The position numbers and the translations under genes were made by a program. This document shows, one piece after another, positions 5,897 to 54,694 of a DNA stretch of 64,000 nucleotides; positions within the stretch are counted from its first letter, which is position 1, and every line of letters starts with the position of its first letter. The notes beneath the pieces are model-generated. The model saw only the letters and a list, made by a program, of their open reading frames with translations. It searched no databases and was not told the DNA's origin. Source of the stretch: Nocardia sp. CDC159 (GTDB lineage: Bacteria; Actinomycetota; Actinomycetes; Mycobacteriales; Mycobacteriaceae); contig NZ_JAMRXH010000004.1 of assembly GCF_023740735.1 (NCBI RefSeq), positions 186,001 to 250,000 of the forward strand. The letters are read 5' to 3'.

Positions 5897-6045
5897 GCGG
5901 TGAATTCGCTCCGGCACAACGTATCTCGATTTCATTGACGCGACTTTCGCGGCTGGAATAAGGTCGGTGGCGAGCGGTTTCGTCAGCGATGGTTGTTCGC
6001 GCACGCTGTGCATTTCTCGGGAAAGTTGTTCGGGGAGGAGTTCTT

Positions 6046-7164
6046 TTGACTGACGTGCAGATCCGGCCGATCGGTTGGGGCGGTCGGTTGCGGGCAGCGG
6101 TCGCATCCGGTAACCGGGAATATCCGCCGATCATGCTCATTCCATCGGTCGGCGAATATCCGATCTACGACGAGAAGCTGTATTCGGTGATGACCTCGGA
6201 CACGGTGCGGGTCACCGCCTTCGAGCGGGCGGTGCGCAGCTGTGCGCCGGGGCGTACGGTGCTCGATATCGGCACCGGGGCCGATGCGAACTGGGCCATT
6301 ACCGCCGCGGCCGCCGGTGCCACCCGGGTCTGGGCCGTCGAGGCGTTGCCCGAATCGGCCGAGCAGGCCCGCAAGGTCATCGCCGAGCACGGATTCTCCG
6401 ATGTCGTGACCGTGCTCGAGGGCGACTCCTGGAATATCGAGCTGCCCGAACGCGCCGACGTCTGTGTTTCCGAAACCATCGGTACCATCGCGAGTTCCGA
6501 GGGGATCTGCGCGATATTCGACGATGCCCGGCGGCGGCTGGTCCGCGACGGCGGGATCTTCATTCCACATCGCGCCGAAACCGTCGCGATACCCTTCGAT
6601 TTCGATGCGGTGCTGCGTGGGGCCCGCCCGGCCCTCATGGATGAATACGCACCCTATGTGGAGCGGGTCTTCGATTCCGTGGGACGGGCCTTCGAACTTC
6701 GCCTGTGCTGGACCGAAATCCCCGAGATCGGTCGGCTCGCCGATCCGGTCGTGGTGGAGACCCTGCATCTCGGAGCGGCCGACCACGAATATCCCGCCAC
6801 CAGATCACGGGCGCGAATTCGGCGGCCCGGCACCTTCGGCGGAGTCGCCCTGGGGATCCGGCTGTGGGTGAGCCCGCGGGACGAGTTGCGCATCGATTCC
6901 CTGGTGCAGCAGACGTCCTGGCTGCCGGTCTTCGTACCCGCCGACGCCGAGCGGCCGCGGCGCATCGAGGTCGGCGACGAATTCGAGATCGAATTCGACG
7001 CGAATCCGAGTCTCGATGGTATCCACCCGGACTATCGGCTCGGGCTGCGTTTCACCGGCGATGCGGGCGACGCGCTGAGGTGGGATGCGAAGTATCTCGG
7101 CGCCGCCGGTCCGCGGTCCAATCCGTTCTATCGCCGCCTGTTCGCCGACGAGTTGCCCGCGTGA
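6046..7164 (+). CDS. PRMT-like SAM-dependent methyltransferase
   Basis: A 372-residue class I methyltransferase. SAM motif I VLDIGTGADANW lies at about residues 72-83, with the acidic end of beta-2 in AVEALPE. The SETIGTIASSEG segment fits the double-E loop (SExxG...E) of protein arginine methyltransferases, and YDEKLYSVMTSDTVR resembles the PRMT N-terminal YF helix. The C-terminal half is beta-rich, as in the PRMT barrel. TTG 6046 is preferred because GGGGAGGAG lies 5-6 bases before it. The stop overlaps the start of an ABC exporter gene (GTGA). A protein or peptide substrate is an inference; small-molecule substrates are possible. Confidence 0.72.
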   Translation: MTDVQIRPIGWGGRLRAAVASGNREYPPIMLIPSVGEYPIYDEKLYSVMTSDTVRVTAFERAVRSCAPGRTVLDIGTGADANWAITAAAAGATRVWAVEALPESAEQARKVIAEHGFSDVVTVLEGDSWNIELPERADVCVSETIGTIASSEGICAIFDDARRRLVRDGGIFIPHRAETVAIPFDFDAVLRGARPALMDEYAPYVERVFDSVGRAFELRLCWTEIPEIGRLADPVVVETLHLGAADHEYPATRSRARIRRPGTFGGVALGIRLWVSPRDELRIDSLVQQTSWLPVFVPADAERPRRIEVGDEFEIEFDANPSLDGIHPDYRLGLRFTGDAGDALRWDAKYLGAAGPRSNPFYRRLFADELPA

Positions 7165-8900
7165 GGATCTCGGCCATCATCCTGCGGCATCGGGGGCTGC
7201 TGATCGCCGGGACGCTGCTGGGGCTGGCGGGGGTGGCCGCCACGCTGGCCCAGCCGCTGCTCATCGGCGGGCTGATCGGCGTTGTCGCGGCGGGAGGTTC
7301 GGCGATCGGGCCGATCGCGGCGCTGTGCGGCCTGTTCGCGGCCGATGCGCTGCTGGCCGCCGCGCATTTCTACGCCATCGGCCGGGCCGGTGAGCACATC
7401 GTCCTCGATATGCGCACCACCCTCACCGGGCGGCTACTGCACGCCAGGATGGCGGCGTTCGGGCGGCTCGAGCACGGCGAGCTGTTCACCCGGACCATCG
7501 CCGACACCGCCCTCGCGCGGGCGGCGCTGACCTCGTCGGTGGCGCAGATCGTCACGAGCGGTTTCCTGGTGCTCGGCTGCGTCGCGGCGATGGGCTGGAT
7601 CGACTGGAAACTGTTGCTGGTCACCGTCGGATGTCTGGGCGTCGCCTCGGCGGTCAGCGTGGCGCTGGCCCGTGCGGTACGCGCCGCCTCGGCCGAGAAT
7701 CGAGCGGACAACGGCCACTACGGTTCCGGTGTCGCCCGGATCTTCGGCGCGTTGAGCACGGTCAAGGCGTCGCGGGCCGAGGAGCGCGAGGGCGCGCGGC
7801 TCGACGGTCTGGCCCGGACGGCCTGTGCGAGCGGCATCCGGGTGACCCGGCTGTCGGCGCTGTTGATGCCGACCATCAATGTCGGCCTGCAGACGTCGGT
7901 GGCCGTGGTCATCGCGTGGGGTATGGCCCGCACGGCGGCGGGGTCGCTGTCCATCGCGAACCTCACCGCGTTCGTCATGTATCTGTTCTATCTGGTGTCC
8001 CCGCTGGTGACGCTGTTCATGGCACTGGGGGAGTTCCAGCAGGGGCGGGCGGCGGTGGACCGGGTGGTCGATCTGGCGGGCATCGAGCAGGAGCCCGCCG
8101 TCGAAACAACGGTGGGGACGGGGGCGCTCGCGGTTTCGGCCCGTTCGGTGGGTGCCTTATCGGGTGCGGCTCTCGAGTTCGACGGGGTCACGTTCGCCTA
8201 TCCCGATGTCGGCGCGCCTGCGGTCGAGGAGGTGTCGTTCGCATTGCCCGCGACCGGGGTGACGGCGATCGTCGGGCCGTCGGGCTCGGGGAAGACCACG
8301 CTGTTCCAGCTCGTCGAGCGCTTCCACGCGCCGCAGCGGGGCGTGATTCGGTTGGGCGGCAGCGATATTGCCGCGCTGCCGCTCGGTGTCCTGCGGGCGC
8401 GGGTGGGGTTGGTCGAGCAGCATTGTCCGCTGCTGCGCGGCACCGTCCGGGACAACATCGCCTACGCCTGCCCCGACGCCACCGACGACGAAATCGCCTG
8501 GGCCATCACGGCTGCCCACCTCACCGAGGTCATCCAGGGACTGCCGCACGGACTCGACACCGAACTCGGCGAGGGCGGCGCGGGCCTGTCCGGCGGTCAA
8601 CGGCAGCGCGTCGCCCTCGCCCGCGCCGTACTCACCCGCCCCGATGTCCTGTTACTGGACGAGGCGACCGCCAATCTGGACTCCGATTCGGAAACCGCCC
8701 TGCGCGAAACCATCGCCATCCTCGCAACCCGCTGCCAGGTGATCACGATCGCCCACCGGCTCTCCACGGTCGTGGACGCCGACCGGATCCTGCTCATGCA
8801 GGACGGCCGGTTGCACGCCGTGGGTACGCACACCGAACTGATGGACACCCACGACACCTACCGCCGATTCGCGCGCCAGCAATTGGCCGTGCGCTGGTGA
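7161..8900 (+). CDS. ABC exporter, fused membrane and ATPase domains
   Basis: 579 residues. A six-helix exporter membrane domain (about 1-310) is followed by a nucleotide-binding domain carrying GPSGSGKTT, LSGGQRQR, VLLLDEATANLD and the H-loop IAHRLST. This is a half-transporter that would act as a homodimer, of the MsbA/LmrA/lantibiotic-exporter type without a peptidase domain. It is translationally coupled to the upstream methyltransferase gene, which suggests that they process and export the same molecule. A lanthionine synthetase gene lies nearby on the opposite strand, so peptide export is a reasonable but unproven guess. Confidence 0.85.
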   Translation: MRISAIILRHRGLLIAGTLLGLAGVAATLAQPLLIGGLIGVVAAGGSAIGPIAALCGLFAADALLAAAHFYAIGRAGEHIVLDMRTTLTGRLLHARMAAFGRLEHGELFTRTIADTALARAALTSSVAQIVTSGFLVLGCVAAMGWIDWKLLLVTVGCLGVASAVSVALARAVRAASAENRADNGHYGSGVARIFGALSTVKASRAEEREGARLDGLARTACASGIRVTRLSALLMPTINVGLQTSVAVVIAWGMARTAAGSLSIANLTAFVMYLFYLVSPLVTLFMALGEFQQGRAAVDRVVDLAGIEQEPAVETTVGTGALAVSARSVGALSGAALEFDGVTFAYPDVGAPAVEEVSFALPATGVTAIVGPSGSGKTTLFQLVERFHAPQRGVIRLGGSDIAALPLGVLRARVGLVEQHCPLLRGTVRDNIAYACPDATDDEIAWAITAAHLTEVIQGLPHGLDTELGEGGAGLSGGQRQRVALARAVLTRPDVLLLDEATANLDSDSETALRETIAILATRCQVITIAHRLSTVVDADRILLMQDGRLHAVGTHTELMDTHDTYRRFARQQLAVRW

Positions 8901-40282: not shown

Positions 40283-40449
40283 CCGTCCTCCTTCGCGCAA
40301 TACTGTTCGTGCTCCTCGCAATCCCCCGCGCGCCGATCGCGCAGGGCGACCAGCAGCACCACGGCGACCACCACCACGGCCGGTGCGAACGCCGGTACGG
40401 CCAGCAGCAGACTGTGGTCCGCCAGCACCGTCACGCGCTCGGCCGTCAT
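40279..40449 (-). CDS. Small single-pass membrane protein
   Basis: 56 residues. One hydrophobic helix (about 12-40) is followed by a polar tail with two Cys and acidic residues (DCEEHEQYC). It overlaps the upstream gene by ATGA and its stop overlaps the next start. The conserved spacing within the operon makes it real despite its size. It may be a small subunit of the complex formed by its neighbours. No family recognised. Confidence 0.65.
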   Translation of the reverse strand: MTAERVTVLADHSLLLAVPAFAPAVVVVAVVLLVALRDRRAGDCEEHEQYCAKEDG

Positions 40450-42305
40450 CGGCTGATCACCGAATCCGGTGCCGCGCCGCGCACCCGGGGACATCGGTCG
40501 TTGATCCGGCTCGCGCCCCACGACAGGGCACCGATCAGGGCCAGGCTGCACGCGAGCACGACCAGCGATGCCGCGGCGAAGAGCCAACCGGGCGCGTCGA
40601 AGGAGCGTTCGCGCTGCAGGACGGTGATCTCGGGGGTGAACGGGCGGTGGAAGGAGGCCAGAGCCGGTACTTCCTCGGCGCCGATCGCGGGATCGTCGGG
40701 CATGTAGATGGGCAGGGCGGTCAGCGTCCGGCCGTCGTGGATGCGCAGCACGGTCTTCCAATTGCCGTATGCGGGAACCGGTGTGGTGGAGACGAAGTGC
40801 TCGCCGTCGACGCGCCGCAACTGATCCACCATCAGCCCGCGACCCGGGCTGTCGTTGCCGACACCGCCCTGCCAGGCCAGGATCTGCACCCACTCCGGAT
40901 CCGGGCCGACCAGGCCGGTGGGGTCGAGGCGGATATCGGCGGTCACCATGCGCCCGCCGTCCGACTGTCCCGCATCGGAGAGCGCGACGGTGGCGCCCGC
41001 ATTGCGCGGCACCTCGACAACCAGGCCGTTCGTGGTCGCGGCCGCGAGAATCAGTACCGCGGCGACCATCAGCCCGCGCCGAACAGGCCTGCGTGGCAGG
41101 GCCTCACCGCGTACCACCATGCCCAGCAGCCCGCCGACCACCCCGCCCGCGATGCCGACCGGCACCGCCATGGCCAGCAGCTCCGGCCACATCGAGGCGG
41201 GCCAGCGGTTGACGAACATCCGCTGCACCCACAGCGATTCGAGCCACATCCCGGCCGTGGCGATGGCGAAGCCGCACAGCGCGCCCCACCACAGCGGTCG
41301 GCGTAGCAGGGGCAGCAGCGCCAGCAGCTCCACGATCACCGCGGCGCCCAGATACAGCGGAAAGACGTTGGCGGGGGCCTGGATCAGCGGTCCCGCGACG
41401 AGGAAGGCCACGACGGTGCGGACCACGACCGCGAAGGCCACCGCCACCAGGGTGCTGAACGGGCCCAGGGTGGCTCGCGCGGCGACCAGGGCGATCGAGG
41501 CCGCGACGACGAACAGCATGGGCTGCAGAACGAGCCGGAACTGCTGCACGCCGAAGTCGTATTCCACCGGGAACACCGACAGCCCGATCAGCAGCCCGCC
41601 GTAGGCGAAACAGCGCAGCATCCACAGCAGCCGGTTGTCGCGCCGACCCGGATCGGGGCGGTGGTTGCGCCCCTCGAACTCCAGCAGCAGCACCGCGACC
41701 AGCGACAGGCCCGCGCCGCCGATGAGCATGAGATGTGTTGGGCCCCAAAGCGTCACGTCCTGCCCGAACAGCCGATGCCAGAGGTCGTCGAGCGGGAAGC
41801 CGACGAGGGCGTAGAACCCGGCCGCCGCCAGCAGAATGCCGCCGACCGGTGCGTACCAGGTGCGAGTGATCCGTACCGCGGCCGGGCCCGGACGCTCGTC
41901 CAGCGGCAGCACGATCGCCGTCATGCCCGCGGTGAACAGGAAGAACAGGCCGACGAGGATGAAGTAGTGCGCGGGATTGGCCAGCGGTCCGGGATCGCGC
42001 CCCTTGCCGATGTGCAGGCTCACATCCCAGATGAAGCCGAGCAGCGCGGTCAGGATCGTGCCCAGGAACAGCGCGACCGGCAGCGCGACCCAGCCCGGCC
42101 GATTGAACCGCTGTCCCAGCCGATCGGCCGCCGCCCCCAGCCAGTGAATCCGCCTGGTGCGGTGCAGATATCCCACCCACAGCAGCAGGAGTGCGATCAT
42201 CCCGGCCGAGGCGGTCAGGATGACGACCTGGTCCAGGGCCGCGCCCCCGGCCTCGGGGCCGCGGGCGGCCAGGGTGTGCGATACCGCGTACGTCGGGTCG
42301 GCCAC
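40446..42305 (-). CDS. Large polytopic membrane protein, first gene of cupredoxin operon
   Basis: 619 residues. About twelve hydrophobic segments cover residues 25-440. An extracytoplasmic beta-rich domain (about 460-570, with IRLDPTGLVGPDPEWVQ and LPIYMPDD) follows, and a final helix (about 585-610). GTG 42305 follows AGGCGGAGG. The gene leads the four-gene operon and is divergent from the first DUF2236 gene. No named family was recognised; a membrane redox or transport complex is possible. Confidence 0.65.
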   Translation of the reverse strand: MADPTYAVSHTLAARGPEAGGAALDQVVILTASAGMIALLLLWVGYLHRTRRIHWLGAAADRLGQRFNRPGWVALPVALFLGTILTALLGFIWDVSLHIGKGRDPGPLANPAHYFILVGLFFLFTAGMTAIVLPLDERPGPAAVRITRTWYAPVGGILLAAAGFYALVGFPLDDLWHRLFGQDVTLWGPTHLMLIGGAGLSLVAVLLLEFEGRNHRPDPGRRDNRLLWMLRCFAYGGLLIGLSVFPVEYDFGVQQFRLVLQPMLFVVAASIALVAARATLGPFSTLVAVAFAVVVRTVVAFLVAGPLIQAPANVFPLYLGAAVIVELLALLPLLRRPLWWGALCGFAIATAGMWLESLWVQRMFVNRWPASMWPELLAMAVPVGIAGGVVGGLLGMVVRGEALPRRPVRRGLMVAAVLILAAATTNGLVVEVPRNAGATVALSDAGQSDGGRMVTADIRLDPTGLVGPDPEWVQILAWQGGVGNDSPGRGLMVDQLRRVDGEHFVSTTPVPAYGNWKTVLRIHDGRTLTALPIYMPDDPAIGAEEVPALASFHRPFTPEITVLQRERSFDAPGWLFAAASLVVLACSLALIGALSWGASRINDRCPRVRGAAPDSVISR

Positions 42306-42446
42306 GGCGATACCTCCGCCTTCAGAGAACATCCGTTCACTGAATTACCAACGCGGACGCGGAATATGTATCGATCTTGTCCTGCAGCGGATTTCGGCCA
42401 TGTCGATTCACCGCACCTGGGGAATATCGAGAGCTTTTCGTTGGGT

Positions 42447-42510
42447 ATCTATCAAAACGCGGAGACCTGTGTCACACTCGTTGATAGATCAGCCAGTCTT
42501 TATCTATCAA
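42447..42510 (+). promoter_or_regulatory. Promoter/operator region A with ATCTATCAA repeats
   Basis: ATCTATCAA (42447-42455), GTGTCACACTC (42469-42479), TTGATAGAT (42481-42489) and ATCTATCAA (42502-42510). The last two are perfect 9-bp inverted arms. TTGATA resembles a -35 box, so the operator would overlap the core promoter of the DUF2236 genes. The same motif order recurs before the mce operon. Confidence 0.7.
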
Positions 42511-42549
42511 TCCCGGGGTCGGTTCGGCTTCGAAGGAGAGGAGTCGACA

Positions 42550-43404
42550 GTGACCACAACGCAACCCGAGCCCGCACCGACATCCGCGCTGCGGACGGTC
42601 GGTCCCGGCTCGGCGACCTGGCGGTGGGGGGTGGATTGGCGAGTGGCGCTGGCCAGCCGGGCAGTGCTGTTGCTCGAGGTGGCGCATCCCGTGGTCGGTG
42701 CGGGAGTCATCGATCATTCCGAGTTCCTCAGCGATCGGTGGGCACGCATCTCGCGGACGTTCGCCTCGGCGCGGCGGGTGGCCGGATTTCATGGGCCCGA
42801 TGCCGCCGTCGCGGAGGGGCAACGGTTGCGGGAGGTGCATCGCACCATCTCCGGGGTCGACGCGCACGGCCGCCCCTATCACGCGTTGAACGCCGACGCC
42901 TATCTCTGGGTGCATGCGACCGGCTATGCCGGCCCCGCCGTGGTCCGTCGAGCGTTCGGCGACCGCGTCGAAGCCGACCGTGAGGAGGCGCTGTTTCGGG
43001 AGTGGCAGGACCTCGCGGGCATCCTGCGGATTCCCGGCCGGGTCGTGCCGCGGACGCGGGCGGAGTTCTGGACCTATTACGAGCACACGGTCGAGACCGT
43101 GCTGGAGCGCAATGCCGCCACCGATCTGATCCTCGAACTCGACCGCAAGCCGATGCCGGTGCCCCCGAATCTCACTGTGCCGCAGCCTGTATGGAACGGA
43201 CTCGCGACACCGCTCGCGGCTTTGCTGCGGCTGACCACGGCCGGCATGCTGGCGCCGACACTGCGGGCGCGACTCGGCGTGCCCTGGTCGTCGGCGCGCG
43301 AAAAGCGCTTCGGCCGCGTGGTCAGCACGGTGCGGGTGCTGGATCGACTGCTGCCGGAGCGAATTCGTCATCCGGCGGCCGAGCGCACCGACGTGCTGCC
43401 CTGA
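42550..43404 (+). CDS. DUF2236 / MpaB-type oxygenase-like protein, copy 1
   Basis: 284 residues, all-helical. The family includes the rubber oxygenase Lcp and fungal MpaB and often binds heme b. The DUF2236 pattern is seen in LLLEVAHPVVGAGV, the LREVHRTISGVDAHGRPYHALN block and AYLWVHATGY. His in REVHRTI and in LWVHAT are candidate heme ligands. GGAGAGGAG precedes GTG 42550. First of three DUF2236 genes on one strand, leading into the mce operon. Confidence 0.82.
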   Translation: MTTTQPEPAPTSALRTVGPGSATWRWGVDWRVALASRAVLLLEVAHPVVGAGVIDHSEFLSDRWARISRTFASARRVAGFHGPDAAVAEGQRLREVHRTISGVDAHGRPYHALNADAYLWVHATGYAGPAVVRRAFGDRVEADREEALFREWQDLAGILRIPGRVVPRTRAEFWTYYEHTVETVLERNAATDLILELDRKPMPVPPNLTVPQPVWNGLATPLAALLRLTTAGMLAPTLRARLGVPWSSAREKRFGRVVSTVRVLDRLLPERIRHPAAERTDVLP

Positions 43405-43445
43405 AATCCCTGTCCCGTCGACGAAGCCGGAAAAGGAAACGCGAT

Positions 43446-44336
43446 ATGCCCCAGACATCACCGACCGACTCGAATGCCGCGTCGACACCGCTGAATCGAC
43501 GAGCGCGACGGCGGGAAACCGACGCGGTCGATACGCGGTTTCTCACCGACGAGATGACACCGTGGCTGTCACCGGCCTACGGCGCGGCGAATGTCGTCAT
43601 GCAGCTGGCCAACGCCGGGGTCGCCTACGGCGTGATGGAGAGCAGGGTCGACAGCGGCAACCTGCACAAGCACCCGTTCAAACGCGCCCGCACCACCTTT
43701 ACCTACATCGCCGTGGCGGTGGCGGGCAACGCCGAGGATCGCCGCATCTATCGGGACGCGGTCAACGCGGTCCACGCCCAGGTGCGATCGACTCCGCAAA
43801 GCCCCGTGCGCTACAACGCTTTCGACCCGGCGTTGCAGCTGTGGGTGGCCTCCTGCATGGCGGCCGTATTCGAAGACACCCGCAGGCTACGACGCGGCCG
43901 CACCCGCCACGATCCGGACACCATCTACCAGGCCGCGTCGGTCTTCGCGACCACATTGCAGGTGCCGCGGGAGATGTGGCCGCCGAATCGAGAAGCCTTC
44001 GACGACTACTGGAATCAGCAGCTCGACCGGCTGGAATTCGACCAGCGCATGCGCGAGTTCCTGATCGGCATTGCGCGCCTGGACTTCCTTCCGACCCCGA
44101 TACGATGGTTGTTCGGTGGCTGGAATCTGTTCCTGACACTGGGTTATCTGCCACCGCGGCTACGCGACAAGCTCGACGTCACCTGGACCGCGCAGCAGCA
44201 GCGCCGATTCGACCGCTGGCAGAGCGTATTCCGAGTCCTGGACCGCCTCACGCCCCGGGCCGCGGTCCGGATGGCGGTACGGCTGGTCGTCTGGGATATG
44301 CGGTTGCGCAACAAGATCGGGGCCACGGTCGTATGA
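43446..44336 (+). CDS. DUF2236 / MpaB-type oxygenase-like protein, copy 2
   Basis: 296 residues. It is more diverged than copy 1 but keeps the same plan, with VVMQLANAGVAYGVMES, VNAVHAQV, YNAFDPALQLWVASC and MWPPNREAFDDYW. A basic N-terminal stretch precedes the domain. ATG 43446 lies 41 bp after copy 1, and the stop overlaps the next ATG, so the three genes are one transcript. A hydrophobic substrate such as a lipid or isoprenoid fits the family but is not shown. Confidence 0.78.
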   Translation: MPQTSPTDSNAASTPLNRRARRRETDAVDTRFLTDEMTPWLSPAYGAANVVMQLANAGVAYGVMESRVDSGNLHKHPFKRARTTFTYIAVAVAGNAEDRRIYRDAVNAVHAQVRSTPQSPVRYNAFDPALQLWVASCMAAVFEDTRRLRRGRTRHDPDTIYQAASVFATTLQVPREMWPPNREAFDDYWNQQLDRLEFDQRMREFLIGIARLDFLPTPIRWLFGGWNLFLTLGYLPPRLRDKLDVTWTAQQQRRFDRWQSVFRVLDRLTPRAAVRMAVRLVVWDMRLRNKIGATVV

Positions 44337-45295
44337 ACACCCACGCGGAATTCTCCGGCTCCACAACCGCGCTGCTGGTCGATGGTGTGCCGATCGAGCT
44401 GATCTCGCCGGAGTCGCTCACCGCCGAAATGACCGGCCACTGGACTTATCTGCTGCTCGAGGGAGCGGCCTTCGTGATGCAGGGCATGCACCCGATCATC
44501 GCCGACGTGGTCGACCGTTACTCGGTCGCCCGCACCGACCCCCTCGGCCGCGGCATTCGCTCGGTGGACTCGGTACTGCGCTGGGTATACGGCGGACTCG
44601 AGGCCATCGAGGAAGGCAGGCGACTACGGTCGCTGCATCAACCGCTCCAGATGCGCAACACCGAGGGCCGCCGTATCAGTGCGCTGGATCCCGGTGCCTA
44701 CCAATGGGTTGTCGCCACCGCCTACATCACCACCCTCAACGCGGGCCCGCTGCTGATCGGACGCGAGTTCACCACCGCCGAACAAGAAGAACTACTGCGC
44801 GACAACGTACGGCTGGCCCGCATCCTGCAGGTGCCGATGCGGGGCTACCCCACCACCCGCGAGGAATTCGACGCCTACTTCACCACCATGATCGAAACCA
44901 CCCTGCGGGCACACCCCGACGTAGTGGACGGACTGGCCCAGCTGCGCCGCGGTCTACCTCACCCCGAGGCGCTCTCCCGCATCCCCGCACCGATGCGGCC
45001 GATGGTCGTCGTCGCCGCGCGTCCACTGCTGCGAGTGGTGTACCTGGCCATGGTGGCGGCCATGGACGAACGCATCCGTGCCATGCTCGGCGTCGAGCTG
45101 AGCCCTCGCGAAAACACCCGCGTGCGAGCGATTTTCACCGCGGTCCGGATGGCCTACCGGATCCTGCCGGACCGGCTCACCTATTTTCCGATCGCCTACC
45201 ACGCCCGCAAGCACCACCAATGCATCCGGGCGATGAAACGACGGGAACTGAACTCCGCCGCGTATCGGGTGCGGCCGAAGCAGCCGACAGGCTGA
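44333..45295 (+). CDS. DUF2236 / MpaB-type oxygenase-like protein, copy 3
   Basis: 320 residues, translationally coupled to copy 2 (ATGA). Recognisable blocks are LLLEGAAFVMQGMHPIIADV, SLHQPLQMRNTEGRRISALD, AYQWVVATAY and YPTTREEFDAYF. Compared with copies 1 and 2 it has a long lead before the first helix and a basic C-terminus. The three copies may be subunits or act in sequence on one substrate imported by the Mce system downstream. Confidence 0.8.
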   Translation: MNTHAEFSGSTTALLVDGVPIELISPESLTAEMTGHWTYLLLEGAAFVMQGMHPIIADVVDRYSVARTDPLGRGIRSVDSVLRWVYGGLEAIEEGRRLRSLHQPLQMRNTEGRRISALDPGAYQWVVATAYITTLNAGPLLIGREFTTAEQEELLRDNVRLARILQVPMRGYPTTREEFDAYFTTMIETTLRAHPDVVDGLAQLRRGLPHPEALSRIPAPMRPMVVVAARPLLRVVYLAMVAAMDERIRAMLGVELSPRENTRVRAIFTAVRMAYRILPDRLTYFPIAYHARKHHQCIRAMKRRELNSAAYRVRPKQPTG

Positions 45296-45465
45296 ACCCC
45301 GAACCTGTAGTTACTGGCTATTCTCTTGCTCTCCATAGCTCGGAGCCGGTCGACAGGAGAACTTGCTGTGCGCTCTTGCACGGCACTCCGCACATTGCGG
45401 CGATGTAGCTCCCGCCCTTATGTGAGTTTAGATTCCATGAAAACCCATCCGGAAGAACGAGATGC

Positions 45466-45504
45466 GTGTCACACTCTGATAGTTCTCTTATTGCATATCT
45501 ATCA
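45466..45504 (+). promoter_or_regulatory. Promoter/operator region B before the mce operon
   Basis: GTGTCACACTC (45466-45476), TGATAG (45477-45482) and ATCTATCA (45497-45504) repeat the order of motifs in region A (42469-42510), and the leader GGAGAGGAGTC is shared too. TGATAG and CTATCA form inverted arms. The other 200 bp of this 245-bp gap hold nothing recognisable. Confidence 0.7.
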
Positions 45505-45540
45505 CTCGGGACAGCGGAGCTCGAGGGAGAGGAGTCCGCG

Positions 45541-46425
45541 ATGACGGCCGCCCAGCGCGACCGTGCGCCCGAAGTCGGGCCGCACACCGGCTCCGATCCG
45601 ATCTCGCTGCGGCAGCGGGCTTTCGAGCTGGCCTGGTATTTCGTGACGGCCGGGTTCGCCTTCGTCGAGGCGTGCGGACGGACGGTGTCGATGCTGATCG
45701 CGGCCGCCCGCTGGACCGTCGTCGACATCGTCGGGCTGCGCTTCTCCTGGGCCGAATTCGTTACTCAGGCATGGTTCATGGTGCGGGTGTCGGCGCCGCC
45801 GGCGGTATTCATCTCGATCCCGTTCGGAGTCACCACGATCATCCAGGTGTCGGGACTGACGACGCAGATCGGCGCGACCTCGGTCGCGGGCGCGGCCGGC
45901 GGGCTGGGGATCATCGGCCAGGCCGCGCCAATGGTGGCCGCGCTGCTGTTGGGCGGTGCCGCCGGGTCGGCGATCGCCTCGGATCTGGGGGCGCGCACGA
46001 TCCGCGAGGAGATCGACGCCATGCGCGTGATGGGCCTGGACCCGACGCGGCGGTTGGTCGCGCCACGGCTGGCCGCGATGGTCGCGGTGGCACCACTGCT
46101 GTGCATTCTGGTCATGATCGTCGGCATCTCGACGACCTTCGTCATCAATGTCACCGTCATGCACGGGGCACCGGGCAGCTTCCTGTTGTCGCTGTCGGCG
46201 TTCTCCTCCTCGCTCGACGTGGCGATCGCGCTGGGCAAGGCCGTCGTCTTCGGCGTCGCGGTGGTCGCGGTTGCCTGCTACTGCGGGCTGACCGCCCGCG
46301 GCGGGCCGCGCGGGGTCGCCAATGCGGTCAACGCGGCCGTCGTGGTCGGCATGGTGACGGCGTTTCTGCTGAATCTGCTGATGACCCAGCTGTTGAGCAT
46401 GTTCCACCCACCGAGGATCGGCTGA
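45541..46425 (+). CDS. yrbEA: MlaE-family permease YrbE-A of the mce operon
   Basis: 294 residues with about five membrane helices. The MlaE permease domain contains TIREEIDAMRVMGLDP, the coupling-helix region that meets the ATPase MceG. AGGGAGAGGAG precedes ATG 45541. It pairs with YrbE-B to form the inner-membrane core of a lipid importer. The ATPase is not in this window, as usual for mce loci. Confidence 0.92.
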   Translation: MTAAQRDRAPEVGPHTGSDPISLRQRAFELAWYFVTAGFAFVEACGRTVSMLIAAARWTVVDIVGLRFSWAEFVTQAWFMVRVSAPPAVFISIPFGVTTIIQVSGLTTQIGATSVAGAAGGLGIIGQAAPMVAALLLGGAAGSAIASDLGARTIREEIDAMRVMGLDPTRRLVAPRLAAMVAVAPLLCILVMIVGISTTFVINVTVMHGAPGSFLLSLSAFSSSLDVAIALGKAVVFGVAVVAVACYCGLTARGGPRGVANAVNAAVVVGMVTAFLLNLLMTQLLSMFHPPRIG

Positions 46426-47357
46426 TGACCGCCCTACCGACCCATCCCGAGGCCGGGCCGGACCGCTCCGGCCCGCCGACGGCCACCACGAGCACACCGT
46501 CGAGATATCGTCCGCCGCTGTTCGGTCCGCTCGCGATGGCCGGACGGCCGGTCGGCACCGCCTATCGCGCGGTTCAGGCGGTCGGGCATCAGGTGAGCTT
46601 CGCCGTCGGCGCGGTGGCCGCGGTCCCGTTCGCGCTGCTGCACTACCGACGCCAGATCGCTCTGCAGATTCGCCACATCACTTGGGGGGCAGGCGGAATC
46701 GTCGTCGGCGGTGGCACGGCGATCGTGCTGCTGTTGATCGGGGCAGCCGTCGGCGGGGCGATCGGAATCATCGGCGTGATGTTTCTGAACATGGTGGGCA
46801 TGGGTCCGCTGGCCGGATTCGTGTCCGCCTACGGCAACACCCGCGAGATCGGCCCGATGATCGTGGCGCTCGGGTTCGCCGCGCAGGCCGGATGCCGGAT
46901 CACCGCGGAGCTGGGATCTATGCGTATCAGCGAGGAAATCGATGCGCTGGAAGCGATTTCGGTGCGGCCACTGCCGTTCGTGGTCACCACCCGGCTGATC
47001 GCGACGGTCGCCACGATCGTCCCGTTCTACGTGTTCTCCCTGACCATCAGCTACGCCTCGGCGTCGATCTTCGTGCAGTTCCTGCACAGCGAGACCGCCG
47101 GGACCTACCAACATTATTTCCGAAACTATCTGTCGGGCAACGATATCGGACTGTCGCTGGTGAAGGCCGTGATATTCGTCGCGGCGGTTGTGCTCATCCA
47201 CTGCTATCAGGGGTTCTACGCCGTCGGCGGCCCGGTGGCGGTCGGCGAGGCGTGCGGGCGGGCCATCCGCGCCAGCCTGGTGGTGATCGTCGTGCTCGAC
47301 ATGATGCTGACCCTGCTGTTCTGGGGGACCGACACCGGCATCAGGATCTCGGGGTGA
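46425..47357 (+). CDS. yrbEB: MlaE-family permease YrbE-B of the mce operon
   Basis: 310 residues. A Pro/Thr-rich N-terminal tail precedes about five membrane helices and the RISEEIDALEAISV coupling element. Its ATG shares one base with the TGA of YrbE-A (TGATG). Partner permease of the Mce lipid transporter. Confidence 0.92.
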   Translation: MTALPTHPEAGPDRSGPPTATTSTPSRYRPPLFGPLAMAGRPVGTAYRAVQAVGHQVSFAVGAVAAVPFALLHYRRQIALQIRHITWGAGGIVVGGGTAIVLLLIGAAVGGAIGIIGVMFLNMVGMGPLAGFVSAYGNTREIGPMIVALGFAAQAGCRITAELGSMRISEEIDALEAISVRPLPFVVTTRLIATVATIVPFYVFSLTISYASASIFVQFLHSETAGTYQHYFRNYLSGNDIGLSLVKAVIFVAAVVLIHCYQGFYAVGGPVAVGEACGRAIRASLVVIVVLDMMLTLLFWGTDTGIRISG

Positions 47358-47364
47358 ACCGGCG

Positions 47365-48399
47365 ATGACGACATTCCAGGATCTGTCCGGACGCTCCGCC
47401 GGCCCGTTGGCGCTGTTCGTCCGCGGCGCACTGGCCCTGCTGGCGGTGGCGATCGCCGCGACCGCCGTCCGCTACGCGACGACTCACCGATCCGGCGCCG
47501 CCGAGCTGCGGGTCGTCACGGTGACCTCCGCCGACACCAGCGGTGTGAACGTCGGATCCCCGGTTCTGTTGCGCGGCACCCACATCGGTACCGTCACCGC
47601 CATTGCGCAGGGCTCGGCCAGCCAGCGGATCGTGCTGTCGCTGGCGACGTCCGCGGCGAATCTGCTGACCGACGCGGCCACCACCCGGATCGCGGCCACG
47701 AATCTGTTCGGCGCGGCGGGCGTGGAGATCGTTCCCGGCGACCGGCCCGGTCACCGGCTGACACCGGGCACCCTGCTGGCAGGCCAGCAGCAGGTCGACC
47801 GTAGCCTCATCGACGTCCTGCGCCGATTCGGCCGCATGCTCGGCATGGTCGATCTCGGTACCCTGACCGATCTCGGCTACAACAATGCCGACACCGCCAT
47901 CACCGGCGCCGCGGACGGCATCCGGCTGGCGACCGTACTCACGGATCTGATGCTGCCGCCGGGCGCCGACGCCCGCACCTACTTCCCGATCCGCGACGGG
48001 AGCGTGACGCTCGAGGCGGCGGCACCGCTGGCTCCGGCGGTGCTGGCCCTGGCGCGCTCCCTGCTCGACCACAGCGACGCGCTCGTGACCCACCGGGCCG
48101 GGCTGTCTGCCGCACTGAGCGGAGTGAGCGATCTGTTCAGCTCCGTGGGCCGACTGCTCGGCGACGATCCCCACCTCGTCCGCGAGCTGTCGACCGCCTT
48201 CGACACCATATCCGGCCCGGCATGGCCGGTGGTCGTCTCACTCGGCTCGTTGCCGATTGCGTATTCACAAGCGGGACAGATGATTTCACGAATCGATCGG
48301 GCGATTCCGATCCGCGACGGCAAACCGGTGCTGCAGGTCGACATCGCCTCCCAGCTGCCGTTTCTGACCGCAAGTGCCACGGGAGGTGCCTCGCGATGA
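47365..48399 (+). CDS. mceA: MCE-family protein, MceA position
   Basis: 344 residues. An N-terminal membrane anchor (about 15-40) is followed by an MCE domain (about 45-130, with GVNVGSPVLLRGTHIGTV) and a long helical region that would build the shared tunnel of the hexameric Mce shaft. No Cys lipobox. First of six mce genes in the canonical order. Confidence 0.9.
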   Translation: MTTFQDLSGRSAGPLALFVRGALALLAVAIAATAVRYATTHRSGAAELRVVTVTSADTSGVNVGSPVLLRGTHIGTVTAIAQGSASQRIVLSLATSAANLLTDAATTRIAATNLFGAAGVEIVPGDRPGHRLTPGTLLAGQQQVDRSLIDVLRRFGRMLGMVDLGTLTDLGYNNADTAITGAADGIRLATVLTDLMLPPGADARTYFPIRDGSVTLEAAAPLAPAVLALARSLLDHSDALVTHRAGLSAALSGVSDLFSSVGRLLGDDPHLVRELSTAFDTISGPAWPVVVSLGSLPIAYSQAGQMISRIDRAIPIRDGKPVLQVDIASQLPFLTASATGGASR

Positions 48400-49412
48400 G
48401 ATTGCCCCGCAGATCGCTGCTGTGGCTGGCGCTGTTCGCGGCCGCGATGTCGGTGGGCGCGGCCGGATTGATCCGGCTGCTGGACCGCCCGGTTCCCGAC
48501 TCCACCGCCCGGTACTCCGCGGTGTTCACCGACATCTCCGGGCTCTACACCGGAGACGATGTGCGGCTGGCCGGTGTCGCAGTCGGGAAGGTGGCCTCGG
48601 TCGAACTGTCCGGCGGGCAGGCGGTGGTGGGATTCACGCTACGGCCCGATGTGCCGATCCGCACCGGCACCGTGCTGGCCATCCGATTCCAGAACCTCAC
48701 CGGTGAGCGCTACATCGCGATCCAGCACGGCGGCGAAACGCCGGGCGCACCCATCCCGCCTGGCAGCCGCATCGACACCGCCCACACCCGCCCGCCGATC
48801 GACCTCACCGCCGTATTCAACGGTCTGGCACCGATTTTCGACACGATTTCACCGACCGACGTCGACAGGCTCACCCGCGGTCTCGCGGCCTACCTGGAAG
48901 GCGACGGGGCCGGGCTGGGCCCGCTGCTGGCCGATATCGGCTCGATCACCCAGGCGGTGGGCAGCCGGGATCAGTTGATCGGTTCGCTGGTCGCGAACCT
49001 CCAATCCGTCGGTGAGACACTGCAGGGTCGGTCGGCTCAGGTCACGACCCTGCTCACCAGGATCAAGGTCCTCATCGACACCCTGCAGTCGCGTCTGGAT
49101 GCGATCAACCACACCCTCGACGTGAGCCCCGCCGCCGTCGGCCGCATCGGTGCGCTGCTCGCCCACCTGAACGATCAATGGGACACCCTGGCCCCCGAAA
49201 CGCTCGCGGCCCTGGTGCGATTGGTCGGCCAGGGCCGGGTCGACGACGCCGAGAGTCTGTTGAAGACCCTCCCGATCGGGATCGACTCCGTGCGCACGCT
49301 GCTCGAGCAGCTGCGCCGGATCACCCCGACCTCGTGTGACTCGCCCGATGCGGCCACCCTGATTCCGCAGTCCATCACGGTCGGCGATCGGACGGTGCAG
49401 CCATGCCGTTGA
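48396..49412 (+). CDS. mceB: MCE-family protein, MceB position
   Basis: 338 residues. Anchor helix (about 8-28), MCE domain (about 38-110, with GLYTGDDVRLAGVAVGKV) and helical needle region. A C-terminal Cys pair (SCDSPD and QPCR) is typical of mceB/C products. It overlaps the previous gene by ATGA and the next by 10 bp. Confidence 0.9.
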   Translation: MRLPRRSLLWLALFAAAMSVGAAGLIRLLDRPVPDSTARYSAVFTDISGLYTGDDVRLAGVAVGKVASVELSGGQAVVGFTLRPDVPIRTGTVLAIRFQNLTGERYIAIQHGGETPGAPIPPGSRIDTAHTRPPIDLTAVFNGLAPIFDTISPTDVDRLTRGLAAYLEGDGAGLGPLLADIGSITQAVGSRDQLIGSLVANLQSVGETLQGRSAQVTTLLTRIKVLIDTLQSRLDAINHTLDVSPAAVGRIGALLAHLNDQWDTLAPETLAALVRLVGQGRVDDAESLLKTLPIGIDSVRTLLEQLRRITPTSCDSPDAATLIPQSITVGDRTVQPCR

Positions 49413-50389
49413 TCGCGACCGTCCGCGCGGCCGCCCGCGGGCTGCGCCACGACCGCTCCGCCGGGACCGACCGGATGCGCGCCCTGCTCACCGGTGCGGG
49501 GGCCATCGCCGTCACCGTGATCGCGCTGCTGGCCGCCGCGGTCTTCTACTTCGTTCCGCCCACCGAACAGAGCGTCACCGCCCACCTGGCCGCCGCGGCG
49601 GGCGTCCGGCCCACCGATCAGGTCCGCGTCGCGGGCATTCGCGTCGGGCAGGTGCGCTCGGTGCGGCTGGACGGTCATCGGGTCCGGGTGGTGTTCGGGC
49701 TGCGCCGCGACGTGCACATCGGCGAGCGCACCCGCCTCGACGTCAAACTGCTCACCCCGCTGGGCGGGCGCTACCTGCAACTCACCCTGGCCTCCGGGGA
49801 CACCACGCGCACCCGCTCGATACCGGTCGAGCGCACCACCGTTCCCTACGACCTGCCCGCACTCACCCAACGGGTGACCCAGGGCATGCGGGAGGTGGAT
49901 CCGACGGCGCTGCGGCAATCCCTCGCCGCGCTGCGGGCCGCGGCCGAGCACAGCGACAATCTCGTGCCCTCGATCATCACCAATCTGCAGCGCCTGATCA
50001 CCACGATCGGTGTCCACAACGCCGACATCGACCGCGCCCTGTCGGTGCTGAACGAGTACTCCGATGCGATGGTCGCCGACAAGACCACGCTGACCGAACT
50101 CGTCGCCCACGCCAACGATGTGTCCCGGGTTCTGGCCCGGCGTCGCGGCGAGATCACCGAGATCATCGTCGGCATCGCGCAGCTGTTCGCATTCGTCCAT
50201 CGGCCGCTGATGCTGTACTCCGGCAAGATCGAACCCGCTCTGGACGGACTGCGGCAGCTGCTGCTCACCGCGGACAGCGCCCGCGCCGATATCGATCACC
50301 TGCTCACCTCCACCGGCGCATTGCTGCGCACCTGGAATGCACTGGCTGGCAACCCCTGTCCCGCCTCCGAACCGGAGTGCCCGCGATGA
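49403..50389 (+). CDS. mceC: MCE-family protein, MceC position
   Basis: 328 residues. The anchor is preceded by a basic stretch (about 1-28); the MCE domain contains VRPTDQVRVAGIRVGQV, followed by the helical region. The C-terminus ends with Cys residues (NPCPASEPECPR). The start lies inside the end of mceB, so translation is coupled. Confidence 0.9.
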   Translation: MPLIATVRAAARGLRHDRSAGTDRMRALLTGAGAIAVTVIALLAAAVFYFVPPTEQSVTAHLAAAAGVRPTDQVRVAGIRVGQVRSVRLDGHRVRVVFGLRRDVHIGERTRLDVKLLTPLGGRYLQLTLASGDTTRTRSIPVERTTVPYDLPALTQRVTQGMREVDPTALRQSLAALRAAAEHSDNLVPSIITNLQRLITTIGVHNADIDRALSVLNEYSDAMVADKTTLTELVAHANDVSRVLARRRGEITEIIVGIAQLFAFVHRPLMLYSGKIEPALDGLRQLLLTADSARADIDHLLTSTGALLRTWNALAGNPCPASEPECPR

Positions 50390-51297
50390 AACACACCATC
50401 CGCCGTGTCATCGGCAGCGCCGCAACACTTCTCGTCACCACCACCGCGGTGGGCGCGTGGTCCTCGGTACCGAATCCACTCGCCGACACCGCCGCGGTGT
50501 GCGCCGAATTCACCGACGCCGTCGGCCTCTACGCCGGGAACTCCGTCACCGTGCTCGGTGTCCCGGTCGGCAAGGTCACCACGGTCGAACCCGCGGGTGA
50601 CCGGGTGCGGGTGCATATGTGGGTCGACAGCGATATCCGGCTGCCCGCCACGGTGGGCGCGGCCACGCTGTCGGATTCGATGCTGACCGATCGCCATGTC
50701 GAGCTCACCGGCACCGATGCCGCGGGGCCGGCGCTCGATCGGTCCGGCTGCATCCCGCTCGACCGCACCCAGACTCCGAAATCGGTCAGTGATCTCTACG
50801 CGTCGGCGAACAAGCTCACCGCCGCCCTCGGCGACGGCGGCGACACCCTAGGTGCGCTGCTGTCCACCGCCGCCCAGCAGGTCGGCGGCCAAGGCACCGC
50901 GGTCCGCGATCTGCTCGCCCGGGCCTCGGCGCTGATCGGCGACCCGAACGCCCGCGACCGACAACTGAGCCAGCTGTTCGACAAACTGGCCGGACTCACC
51001 ACCACCGCGGCCGCCGATGCCTTGCTGCTGCAGCGGGCCCTCGACGAGACCGGCCCGGCAATGGACACCTTCTCCACCAACTTCCGCGGTGGCGTGCGCG
51101 ACATCGTCGGCACCGGAACCGAATTCTCGCCCGTGCTGGGCCGCATCCACGACCAGTACTACGAGCTGCTGATGGCCGTGCTGGACATCGCCGTGCCGGT
51201 GGCCCACGCGGTCGTGCCGCTCGCTCGTCCCATCGGCACCATTCTCGATCTGCTGCCGCTCGCCCAGAACGCACCGGCCACAGGAGCGCCGCGATGA
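50386..51297 (+). CDS. mceD: MCE-family protein, MceD position
   Basis: 303 residues. Signal-anchor (about 8-25), MCE domain (about 40-110, with AGNSVTVLGVPVGKV) and helices. Short for MceD proteins, which in mycobacteria often carry a long Pro-rich tail; that tail is absent. ATG 50386 overlaps the mceC stop; GTG 50377 is possible. Confidence 0.9.
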   Translation: MKHTIRRVIGSAATLLVTTTAVGAWSSVPNPLADTAAVCAEFTDAVGLYAGNSVTVLGVPVGKVTTVEPAGDRVRVHMWVDSDIRLPATVGAATLSDSMLTDRHVELTGTDAAGPALDRSGCIPLDRTQTPKSVSDLYASANKLTAALGDGGDTLGALLSTAAQQVGGQGTAVRDLLARASALIGDPNARDRQLSQLFDKLAGLTTTAAADALLLQRALDETGPAMDTFSTNFRGGVRDIVGTGTEFSPVLGRIHDQYYELLMAVLDIAVPVAHAVVPLARPIGTILDLLPLAQNAPATGAPR

Positions 51298-52319
51298 GTC
51301 CCCGTACCGTTGTGCTGCTGCGCCGGGCCGTGGCCTCGCTCGCCATCTCGGCCACCGTATTCACCGCTGCCGCATGCACATTCGATCCGGCCGATGTTCC
51401 GCTGCCCGGCTTTCCCGCCGCCGGCGCCGGCTACCGGCTGCATGCCGAATTCACCAGTGCGCTGAATCTGCCGCAGCGGGCGCCGGTCAAATCCCAGGGC
51501 CAGGCCATCGGCTCGGTCGCCGGAGTGCGGCTGGCCGGTGAGATCGCGGTCGTCGACCTCGACATCGACACCGGCATCACCGTCGCGGCCGGCACCCGTG
51601 CCGAACTACGCCAGGACACCCTGCTCGGCGATCTGTACCTCGCCCTCGATCCGCCCGCGAAACCCGCGGGCGCACTAGCGCCCGGAGCCACGATTCCGAT
51701 CGCGGACACCACCGCCAGCAATATCGAAGACCTGCTGAACGGCCTGGCCAGCATGGTCAACGGCGGCACGGCCGGAATCCTGGGCAGGGCCGCCCGACAG
51801 GTCGGTGCGGCATTGCCCGACGATCCGCAGCGCATCCGCGACATCGCCGCACGCCAGGCGCGGATCGTGCACGAACTCGACGCCAACCGTGCGTCGTTCG
51901 ACCGGATGCTCACCGACGCCGAAGCCACCGCGCGCGCCCTCACCGCCGATCGCGAAACCATCACCCGCACACTCACCGAGTGGCCTGCCCGTCAGGACGG
52001 GATCAACGCCCTCGTCCCGACCTTCGCCCGCTACTTCGACTCGATCCCGCAGTTCGCCGTACCGGTGGCGCAGATGGCCACCGACGCTCGCGCGCGGGAG
52101 ATCACGGCCATCATCGACATGCTGGCACCGCTGCTGCGCACCACCGTCACCCTCGATCTGACCCTGCCGAAACTGATCGGCCCGCTCGATGCGCTGATCA
52201 CCACCAAACTCGTCCCCCTGGCCGCCGGACAGGGCGGCATCGACGCCCGCATCGCCGCACCGCCGGTGTCACCCGACGTCCTGAGCGTCCTGCGAGCCAC
52301 CGGAATGGTGACCAAATGA
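51294..52319 (+). CDS. mceE: MCE-family lipoprotein, MceE position (LprN-like)
   Basis: 341 residues. The signal peptide ends in the lipobox FTAAAC, the usual mark of MceE. The MCE domain (about 45-125) includes RAPVKSQGQAIGSVAGV. The lipid anchor would place it at the outer face of the membrane within the hetero-hexamer. Coupled by overlap to mceD. Confidence 0.92.
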   Translation: MSPRTVVLLRRAVASLAISATVFTAAACTFDPADVPLPGFPAAGAGYRLHAEFTSALNLPQRAPVKSQGQAIGSVAGVRLAGEIAVVDLDIDTGITVAAGTRAELRQDTLLGDLYLALDPPAKPAGALAPGATIPIADTTASNIEDLLNGLASMVNGGTAGILGRAARQVGAALPDDPQRIRDIAARQARIVHELDANRASFDRMLTDAEATARALTADRETITRTLTEWPARQDGINALVPTFARYFDSIPQFAVPVAQMATDARAREITAIIDMLAPLLRTTVTLDLTLPKLIGPLDALITTKLVPLAAGQGGIDARIAAPPVSPDVLSVLRATGMVTK

Positions 52320-53257
52320 GAGCATCCGCGCTGTCCGCCGTGGGGCTTGTCGCCGCGACCCTGCTGACGGGCTACTACCTGATATTCCATCAACTCGGCG
52401 CCCGCCCACTGCGGCATACCATCACCGTCACCGCCCAGCTGCCCGCTTCCGGTGGACTGGAGCCGGGCGCGCCGGTCACCGTGCGCGGCATCAAGATCGG
52501 CGCGGTGCGTTCGGTCTCCCCGACCACCGCGGGCGTCACCATCGAGCTCGGACTCGACTCCGACAGCCGCATTCCCGCGACGACGCCGTTCGTCATCGAG
52601 AACGCCAGCGCCATCGGCGAGCAATTCCTCGACTTCCGGCCCACCGGCACCGCGGGGCCCTACGTCGCCGACGGCGCCGTGCTGCCGCCCGGCCGGGGCA
52701 CGATCCCCGTCAGCGTCGGACAGGCGACCGACGCCATGGCGGCCATGGTGAGCAGCATCGACCCCAACGATGTCGCCACCGTCGCGCGCTTCCTCACCGA
52801 CGCCGCCGGCGGCTCGCAAGCCGATGTACGCAACCTGGTCGCGTTCGGACACCTCGTCGATCGGTCGCTGACCGAACGCACGGGCACGGTCGCCGACCTG
52901 TTCGACGCGATCAGACGGCTGGCGGCGCTGGGCGCGGCGAACACCACCCAGCTCGCGGCCCTGGCCGTTTCGATAGAAGACCTGGCGCAGGTGTGGCCCG
53001 TGATCGGGCCGCTGTTGCCTGGTGTCGCCGATCACCTCGCCGACAACGGGCACAAGGCGGCACTTCTCGTCGACGGGGCAGCACCTCGCCTGCGATCACT
53101 GATCGCGGACGGATCGACCTTCGTCGATCAAGCCGTACCCGATCGCTACCGACGCACCGACGCCCTGGCTCCCATCGACGTCGGATCGTTCACCAGCCTG
53201 CTGCTGACCATGTTCCCCGAATCCGGGCGCATGCAGCTGCCACCGCCGACGAAATGA
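52316..53257 (+). CDS. mceF: MCE-family protein, MceF position
   Basis: 313 residues. Anchor helix (about 5-25), MCE domain (about 35-110, with LEPGAPVTVRGIKIGAV) and helical tail. Shorter than mycobacterial MceF, with no Pro-rich extension. It completes the A-F set and overlaps the next gene. Confidence 0.9.
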   Translation: MRASALSAVGLVAATLLTGYYLIFHQLGARPLRHTITVTAQLPASGGLEPGAPVTVRGIKIGAVRSVSPTTAGVTIELGLDSDSRIPATTPFVIENASAIGEQFLDFRPTGTAGPYVADGAVLPPGRGTIPVSVGQATDAMAAMVSSIDPNDVATVARFLTDAAGGSQADVRNLVAFGHLVDRSLTERTGTVADLFDAIRRLAALGAANTTQLAALAVSIEDLAQVWPVIGPLLPGVADHLADNGHKAALLVDGAAPRLRSLIADGSTFVDQAVPDRYRRTDALAPIDVGSFTSLLLTMFPESGRMQLPPPTK

Positions 53258-53916
53258 GCCCTGCCATGATCACCACCGACAACTGCCCCGAGGCCCGCGC
53301 GAAAGACGAGTCCGGACACGATGATTCGCGTACCGAGCCCCCGACCGACGACAAGGTGGCCGAAAGCCGCACCGGCGCAACGGAAGAGCGAGTCGGCGCT
53401 CCGGACGAGCGAGCGCCACGGTGGCGGCGGCACGCCCTGACCGCGGCCGTCGTCCTGCTCACCGGTGCACTCGGCGGCACCGGCTGGGTGGCCGTCGACC
53501 AGCACCGGCGCGTCGGTGATCTGACCCCCGTCAGCGCCCGCTACCACGACGAGCAGGCGGCTCTGGCGGCCGCGACGATGTTCTTCGCCACCGTCACCAC
53601 CTACGACCACCGCAACCTCGACGCCTACACCGGCGCCGTCGCCGACGCCTCGACCGGCACCTTCCACGACCGCTACAGCGCCGCGGGCGGACCCATCAAA
53701 CAGTTGCTCTCCGACGCCCAGGTGATCTCCACCGGAAAGGTGGTCAGCGCTGGCATCGCCGGGTACACCGGCGATCGCATCACCGTCATCGCCTTCATCG
53801 ACCAGACCTACCAGAACAAGGACACCGCGCAGCCGCGCACCGAAACGCTGCGGATGAGCGCCGATCTCGTCCGCGTCGGCGACCGCTGGCTCGTCTCCGA
53901 TATGAGCCCCAAGTGA
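53254..53916 (+). CDS. Mce-associated membrane protein (Mam-like)
   Basis: 220 residues. An acidic, disordered cytoplasmic N-terminus (about 1-60), one membrane helix (about 62-82) and an extracytoplasmic domain with the NTF2/VirB8-like pattern seen in Mam proteins (AAATMFFATVTTYDHRNLD). Such proteins stabilise the Mce complex. ATG 53254 overlaps the mceF stop; ATG 53266 is the alternative. Confidence 0.83.
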   Translation: MSPAMITTDNCPEARAKDESGHDDSRTEPPTDDKVAESRTGATEERVGAPDERAPRWRRHALTAAVVLLTGALGGTGWVAVDQHRRVGDLTPVSARYHDEQAALAAATMFFATVTTYDHRNLDAYTGAVADASTGTFHDRYSAAGGPIKQLLSDAQVISTGKVVSAGIAGYTGDRITVIAFIDQTYQNKDTAQPRTETLRMSADLVRVGDRWLVSDMSPK

Positions 53917-54028: not shown

Positions 54029-54694
54029 GTGGTCGATCCCGCAAGTCTTCTCGGCTTCGTGCCCGACGGGTTGGGCACCCTGGATCCGACCGCCCGCAAG
54101 ATCGTCACCGCCGCGCGTATCTGCTTCACCGACAGCGGGTTCGCCGACACCACAATGCAACGCATCGCCGACGCGGCCGGGGTCGGCGTGGCCACGGTGT
54201 ACCGCCGATTCGGCCACAAACAACAGCTGGTGCGGCTGGCCATCATGGATGAGGCATTGCGCGTGGCCACGCTGCTCGCCGAGGTCGCCGACCACACGAC
54301 CAGCCCCGAGGACACCATCGTCGAGGTGTTCACCACCTTCGTCCACGCGGCATCCGCGCCGAAACTGCTCACCCGCAGCATCCGCGAATCCCCCGCGGCC
54401 GGGGAGCTTTCGGCCTTCCTCACCAACGAAGCGGCCATCGCCGTGGCCCGCATGCTCGTCACGGCCCACCTCGACCGGTGGCAGACCAGCGGAGAGCTGT
54501 CCGCCGATCTCGACACCGCCGTTCTCGGCGAAATGATCGCCCGCCTGATGATGTCCCTGGTCGAAACCCCCGAATCCGTCATCCCGGTCCAGAACGTCGA
54601 CCGGGCTCGCGACTTCGCCCGAAGCTACCTCGTACCACTCGTACAGACCTGGCGCACACAACCATTCACCGCGCGACGTCCTGCTCCTGGATGA
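54029..54694 (+). CDS. TetR-family transcriptional regulator
   Basis: 221 residues. The N-terminal helix-turn-helix (about 20-65) shows TTMQRIADAAGVGVATVYRRFGHK. A helical ligand and dimer domain follows. GTG 54029 is preferred because CGGAG precedes it; GTG 53954 would add 25 residues without a ribosome site. Directly behind the mce operon, it is a candidate to bind the ATCTATCA/TGATAGAT sites at 42447 and 45466. Confidence 0.85.
   Translation: MVDPASLLGFVPDGLGTLDPTARKIVTAARICFTDSGFADTTMQRIADAAGVGVATVYRRFGHKQQLVRLAIMDEALRVATLLAEVADHTTSPEDTIVEVFTTFVHAASAPKLLTRSIRESPAAGELSAFLTNEAAIAVARMLVTAHLDRWQTSGELSADLDTAVLGEMIARLMMSLVETPESVIPVQNVDRARDFARSYLVPLVQTWRTQPFTARRPAPG

Follow-up and report, generated by a model that had tools for sequence, protein, structure and literature searches.

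A 28-bp dyad, TGATAG-N16-CTATCA, stands before two operons of Nocardia sp. CDC159, one encoding three putative MPAB_Lcp-type oxygenases (D1-D3) and the other a Mce importer, and the TetR-family protein encoded at 54029 most probably binds it and represses both promoters, in which case its release by a ligand would co-induce oxygenases and importer. All coordinates (Table 1) refer to the window, by which we mean the whole 64,000-nucleotide stretch of DNA that was analysed.

D1-D3 pass the Pfam PF09995 cut-off (164-181 bits against 23), the regulator passes that of PF00440 (51 bits against 24) with one TetR_N domain in ~220 residues, and the mce operon has, by gene order and family matches, the standard actinobacterial layout, with six mce genes behind yrbEA and yrbEB. 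In the whole genome there are ten genes of the MPAB_Lcp family and 14 of yrbE type, the latter representing seven mce loci, and among all these loci only the two operons described here bear the exact site. A gene whose 619-aa product has no Pfam match (40446-42305, minus strand) is divergent from site A; in other species (L171, L172, L173, L174) its homologue adjoins a second TetR, of the window regulator's family, with the site absent. Another tetR of the genome, 31% identical, lies on the opposite strand between two D2-like MPAB_Lcp genes (L186, G000:C48:96000-109000, 5443-7959), so the pairing of TetR with MPAB_Lcp occurs more than once in this genome.

Table 1. Genes of the array and predicted promoter and operator elements in the window.
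Feature	Coordinates	Strand	Evidence or remark
O1, second operator of region A (candidate)	42428..42454	+	CGAGAG-N15-CTATCA; right arm is the extra upstream ATCTATCA
GTGTCACACTC of region A, with CACACT (42473-42478) read as -10	42469..42479	+	fixed 16 bp behind the CTATCAAA of O1
O2 of region A (candidate operator)	42482..42509	.	TGATAG-N16-CTATCA; kept in the genus
GGAGAGGAGTC leader with ribosome-binding site, region A	42535..42545	+	GGGAGAG-like leaders in other class I promoters
D1, MPAB_Lcp_cat (PF09995, formerly DUF2236), 284 aa	42550..43404	+	PF09995, E 4e-52
D2, MPAB_Lcp_cat, 296 aa	43446..44336	+	PF09995, E 5e-53
D3, MPAB_Lcp_cat, 320 aa	44333..45295	+	PF09995, E 7e-48
GTGTCACACTC of region B, -10-like	45466..45476	+	homologous to class I promoters
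O2 of region B (candidate operator)	45477..45504	.	TGATAG 45477-45482, CTATCA 45499-45504
GGAGAGGAGTC leader with ribosome-binding site, region B	45526..45536	+	element located in the sequence
yrbEA, yrbEB, six mce genes, mce-associated gene	45541..53916	+	PF02405, PF02470, TIGR00996; gene calls
TetR-family regulator, proposed repressor	54029..54694	+	PF00440, E 1e-13; start GTG 54029 or 54059

The dyad and its promoter context

An earlier note had drawn attention to the same series of elements, in the same order, in region A (before D1) and region B (before yrbEA), and every element was located as described, with the dyad as the common core. Region A indeed has 9-bp perfect inverted arms (TTGATAGAT at 42481-42489 and ATCTATCAA at 42502-42510) and an extra upstream ATCTATCAA (42447-42455), which is half of a second dyad, O1; a reading of region A as an everted half-site pair was given up for this full dyad once its left arm proved conserved. 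A pattern search for TGATAG-N4..34-CTATCA over the whole 7.86-Mb genome, of the kind that the note had proposed, returned the exact dyad only at the two O2 positions, and four further N16 matches appeared when one mismatch was allowed, three of them intragenic and the fourth in a LysR-ahpC intergenic region. In the window, ATCTATCA occurs 4 times against 0.36 expected. This enrichment, the restriction of the dyad to two sites in the genome and a peak at spacer 16 across 150 genomes led us to reject a chance origin. The arms TGATAG and CTATCA are the half-sites of the classical tet operator in reversed order, a resemblance that is probably a coincidence.

The site occurs in two classes of promoter. 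Class I comprises those of the window's two operons and of the MPAB_Lcp operons at six other loci, and is laid out as O1 ([TC]GAGA[GA]-N15-CT[AG]TCAAA), 16 bp, CACACT, 2-3 bp and O2, except that a clear O1 was not found upstream of O2 in region B. The CACACT usually lies within TGTGnCACACT (CATCAT in L073), and O1 is kept, in the same place and at the same distance from CACACT, before MPAB_Lcp operons of G071, G101, G109, G138 (two loci) and G073. Since this distance is fixed while O2 shifts by one base in L066, the comparison suggests that CACACT is the -10 element and that O2 lies over the transcription start. The palindrome GTGTCACAC was also considered as a protein-binding site; in relatives it reads GTGCCACAC, GTGGCACAC and ATGTCACAC, and because the palindromy is thus not kept we read it as a -10 region. 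Class II promoters are found in other species before mce operons and c1-type MPAB_Lcp genes, and their left arm often runs on as TGATAGnnT, similar to an extended -10. Regions A and B could be alike merely through a shared core promoter and leader, the dyad having no regulatory role, given that their homology spans the whole promoter, -10-like element and leader included. However, the dyad is also present in class II promoters, which are unlike A and B outside the arms, and there its spacing and the types of gene behind it are constant, which makes such an explanation extremely unlikely.

The site and the TetR family across Nocardia

With spacers of 15-17 the dyad occurs 72 times in 41 of 150 Nocardia genomes (15 with N15, 54 with N16 and 3 with N17), compared with 23 occurrences of a reversed control pattern for the three spacers together, or ~8 each. 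We fetched 40 site regions and called their genes. They contain 52 N16 sites, the window's two included, and for 46 of these an MPAB_Lcp, tetR or yrbE gene begins at most 400 bp away or, in three cases, the site falls within an MPAB_Lcp call whose 5' end is over-extended. In these regions 16 N16 sites sit between tetR and an MPAB_Lcp gene, often divergent, and in other species there are nine loci where the site stands in front of yrbE and of no other of these genes. The six N16 sites outside the 46 comprise two that are apparently chance intragenic matches, three that precede the gene pair mas/D3 or what is left of it, and one unassigned site (L044). Positions outside the search pattern are symmetrically conserved as well (A -2, T 6, T 8 and A 10, numbered on both strands relative to the initial T of TGATAG). 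In nine other species a D3 orthologue (61-68% identical) closes the site-bearing mce operon, an arrangement that speaks for a joint function without relying on the operator. Outside Nocardia, tetR, the site and MPAB_Lcp genes are found together in Aldersonia (L006/L182) and in G186.

Dyads with a spacer of 15 were also seen in other settings, namely behind the 3' end of c1-type MPAB_Lcp genes (L042:2670, L046:3320, L051:15703, L056:16030, L062:2839, L068:3572), beside a cluster c33 gene in two genomes without this TetR (L077:2855, L078:8881), and just before a gene in genus g30 (L175:6028, L177:6463), that of L175 encoding an AurF-type N-oxygenase (PF11583).

The earlier note had postulated one regulator for both operons, perhaps the TetR protein at 54029, and comparative genomics (conservation, linkage and co-occurrence) strongly supports both suggestions. 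The family of this protein (E <= 1e-30) is present in 35 of the 150 genomes, and the N16 site is found in 32 of these 35 compared with 2 of the 115 others (p = 7.5e-27, a value that treats related species as independent). The three exceptions are G073, whose site has N15; G084, which keeps tetR and mce remnants and whose fetched region lacks the exact site; and G054, a very fragmented genome. The window TetR shares 68-78% identity with its counterparts at the end of operons of this type in five other species, and 46% or more with site-adjacent TetRs elsewhere, compared with 34% for the next paralogue in its own genome. The recognition-helix region VGVATVYRRFG is nearly invariant in the alignment of all site-linked TetRs, and the G186 protein has the same helix; the first TetR tree, in which several outgroup rows were mis-framed, was used only for this alignment. 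Given the co-occurrence and a recognition helix that is retained despite protein identities down to 46%, the TetR at 54029 very likely regulates both promoters. Some members of the family stand elsewhere without the site (L171-L174), and the G084 locus (L170, G084:C20:109000-126000), with tetR and mce fragments and neither the MPAB_Lcp operon nor the exact site, apparently represents decay of the system.

The N16 pattern also recurs in other genera, and the matches examined there sit between a LysR gene and ahpC, for which reason we did not assign them to the same regulon. Such LysR/ahpC-ahpD intergenic dyads, seen in several related genera (L185:4879-4906, L184:4420), have a different inner sequence (TGATAGGcATGgycGATCarAGCTATCA) and are probably OxyR-type sites; the copy in the window's genome (L205:1501, G000:C34:492012-492039) has one mismatch. 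As their arms and spacing are identical to those of A and B, the arms alone do not name the regulator, and the dyad could be bound by another protein, e.g. of the LysR family, with the linkage to tetR being accidental. We find this very unlikely, because the inner sequence common to the LysR-ahpC sites is absent from A and B, one tetR family accompanies the site so consistently and often stands divergently beside it, and a linked LysR gene was seen in none of the fetched regions inspected.

Origin of the mce promoter and operon

That unrelated genes follow one promoter module, as the earlier note had it, is correct, and the likely cause is promoter copying rather than independent evolution of the same element order. 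When promoters were compared with the dyad arms held fixed and similarity expressed as z, region B resembled class I MPAB_Lcp promoters (z ~7 for A, L059 and L064, 4-6 for L066, L071 and L072, not significant for L073) and showed no similarity to mce promoters from other species (z -1.6 to 1.9). The mce promoter is thus probably a diverged copy of a DUF2236-type promoter, in other words a case of promoter capture. The homology of B to DUF2236 promoters beyond the arms and the missing O1 could also mean that TetR mainly controls the DUF2236 operon, site B being a weak relic, or that the protein binds and activates. Both variants are unlikely. The inner spacer has diverged between A and B, yet both arms and the spacing are intact; the nine loci with the site before yrbE alone indicate that control of mce is common; and the position of O2 over the predicted start fits repression.

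The operon itself seems to have a separate history. Site-linked mce operons elsewhere cluster in a single clade, and a different mce operon of the window's genome is closer to this clade than the window's own. Forcing the window operon into this clade was rejected with YrbEA and YrbEB together (p-AU 0.012), and YrbEA alone did not firmly separate it (p-AU 0.055). Elsewhere in the genus, identity to the window's YrbEA does not exceed 61% even for the nearest relatives, and the exact site is absent from the vicinity of yrbE in the eleven examined. D1-D2-D3-tetR form an uninterrupted series in L059 and L071, with the mce operon divergent from D1; in the window the mce operon lies between D3 and tetR. 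These comparisons are most simply read as loss of the native mce operon and arrival of another one with a copy of the oxygenase promoter, although a fast-evolving true orthologue is also conceivable, the window branch being long. We hold only tentatively, at somewhat below even chances, the wider proposal that a previously undescribed regulon, conserved in Nocardia, couples MPAB_Lcp oxygenases to uptake by Mce so tightly that, after loss of the ancestral mce operon, one from another lineage was captured through promoter copying, in which case MPAB_Lcp enzymes would carry out an early step in the processing of Mce cargo. Should it be confirmed that the mce operon was exchanged beneath a retained operator, this would independently support cooperation between oxygenases and importer.

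Proposed mechanism, related systems and the enzymes

Under the preferred reading, TetR would recognise a 28-bp dyad of roughly nTGATAGTyTnA-N6-TnArACTATCAn. It would block the DUF2236 promoter by occupying O1, across the -35 region, together with O2, across the transcription start; at the mce promoter O2 would be its single operator. It would leave the DNA on binding a small ligand, which is probably a lipid, an isoprenoid-like compound or the corresponding CoA ester, upon which the three MPAB_Lcp-type oxygenases and the Mce importer would be made together. No site lies directly before tetR in the window and the gene is the last of the array, which is why we propose that it is probably co-transcribed by read-through from the mce operon, thus limiting its own response; in other arrangements tetR lies behind or beside a site, so self-control would be kept. 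The arms are two helical turns (22 bp) apart and the inner positions are conserved, which suggests two TetR dimers per site, as for QacR, whose operator IR1 is also a 28-bp palindrome and is bound by a tetramer made of two dimers (PMC4482099). For the window this stoichiometry is deduced from the length of the palindrome, and regulator and targets differ from those of QacR.

Searches of the openly licensed literature yielded no description of such a regulon, with DUF2236/MpaB, mce and TetR; they returned rubber-degradation papers, one of which treats Lcp, TetR and Mce together (PMC8538451), as well as mycobacterial work on Mce3R and KstR. Mce3R of Mycobacterium tuberculosis is a TetR-type repressor encoded beside mce3 that also controls lipid and redox enzyme genes; it is a double TetR protein, and its 25-bp non-palindromic sites are 53 bp apart, two of them at the yrbE3A promoter (PMC11667970, PMC2277422). 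Likewise, the window tetR adjoins a mce operon, its proposed targets include lipid/redox enzyme genes, and region A has two candidate sites. Unlike Mce3R, the window protein is single-domain and would act through a 28-bp palindrome on MPAB_Lcp targets; with one TetR_N domain instead of two, and only its helix-turn-helix matching Mce3R (24.8 bits), it was not identified as Mce3R.

The mce4 operon belongs to the KstR regulon, which joins a Mce importer to breakdown genes. KstR is a TetR repressor of oxidative breakdown genes (PMC1995591), and the proposed repressor would similarly pair a Mce importer with oxidative genes, although its targets are not sterol genes and identity with KstR was rejected (22.2 bits against an NCBIfam KstR cut-off of 280). 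The logic resembles that of KstR/mce4 and Mce3R/mce3: a TetR over a Mce system is of a known kind, and the regulon and operator are new and involve a little-studied enzyme family. In rubber degradation, genes of the oxygenase Lcp are under TetR control and Mce has been proposed for oligo-isoprenoid uptake; these systems share with the window PF09995 enzymes, a nearby tetR and a proposed downstream role of Mce, whereas an operator common to Lcp and mce is not described there (PMC8538451).

By their family membership D1-D3 may oxidise a lipid that is the cargo of the importer, and we infer, as the earlier note had suggested, that the system could couple lipid import to lipid oxidation. Most Mce importers have no known cargo and most bacterial MPAB_Lcp proteins no known substrate; a shared operator with a candidate repressor links the two, and the repressor opens a way to the cargo through the compound that releases TetR. 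The enzymes were not identified as Lcp, which is secreted by the Tat path: no signal sequence is visible in D1-D3, searches with D1 or a D-family profile found no useful PDB relatives by sequence, and the best PDB fold match of the D3 model (pLDDT 88), which is Lcp, is weak (E 0.16, TM 0.39). One histidine, a candidate haem ligand, is invariant in D1-D3, their relatives and all D and c1 proteins.
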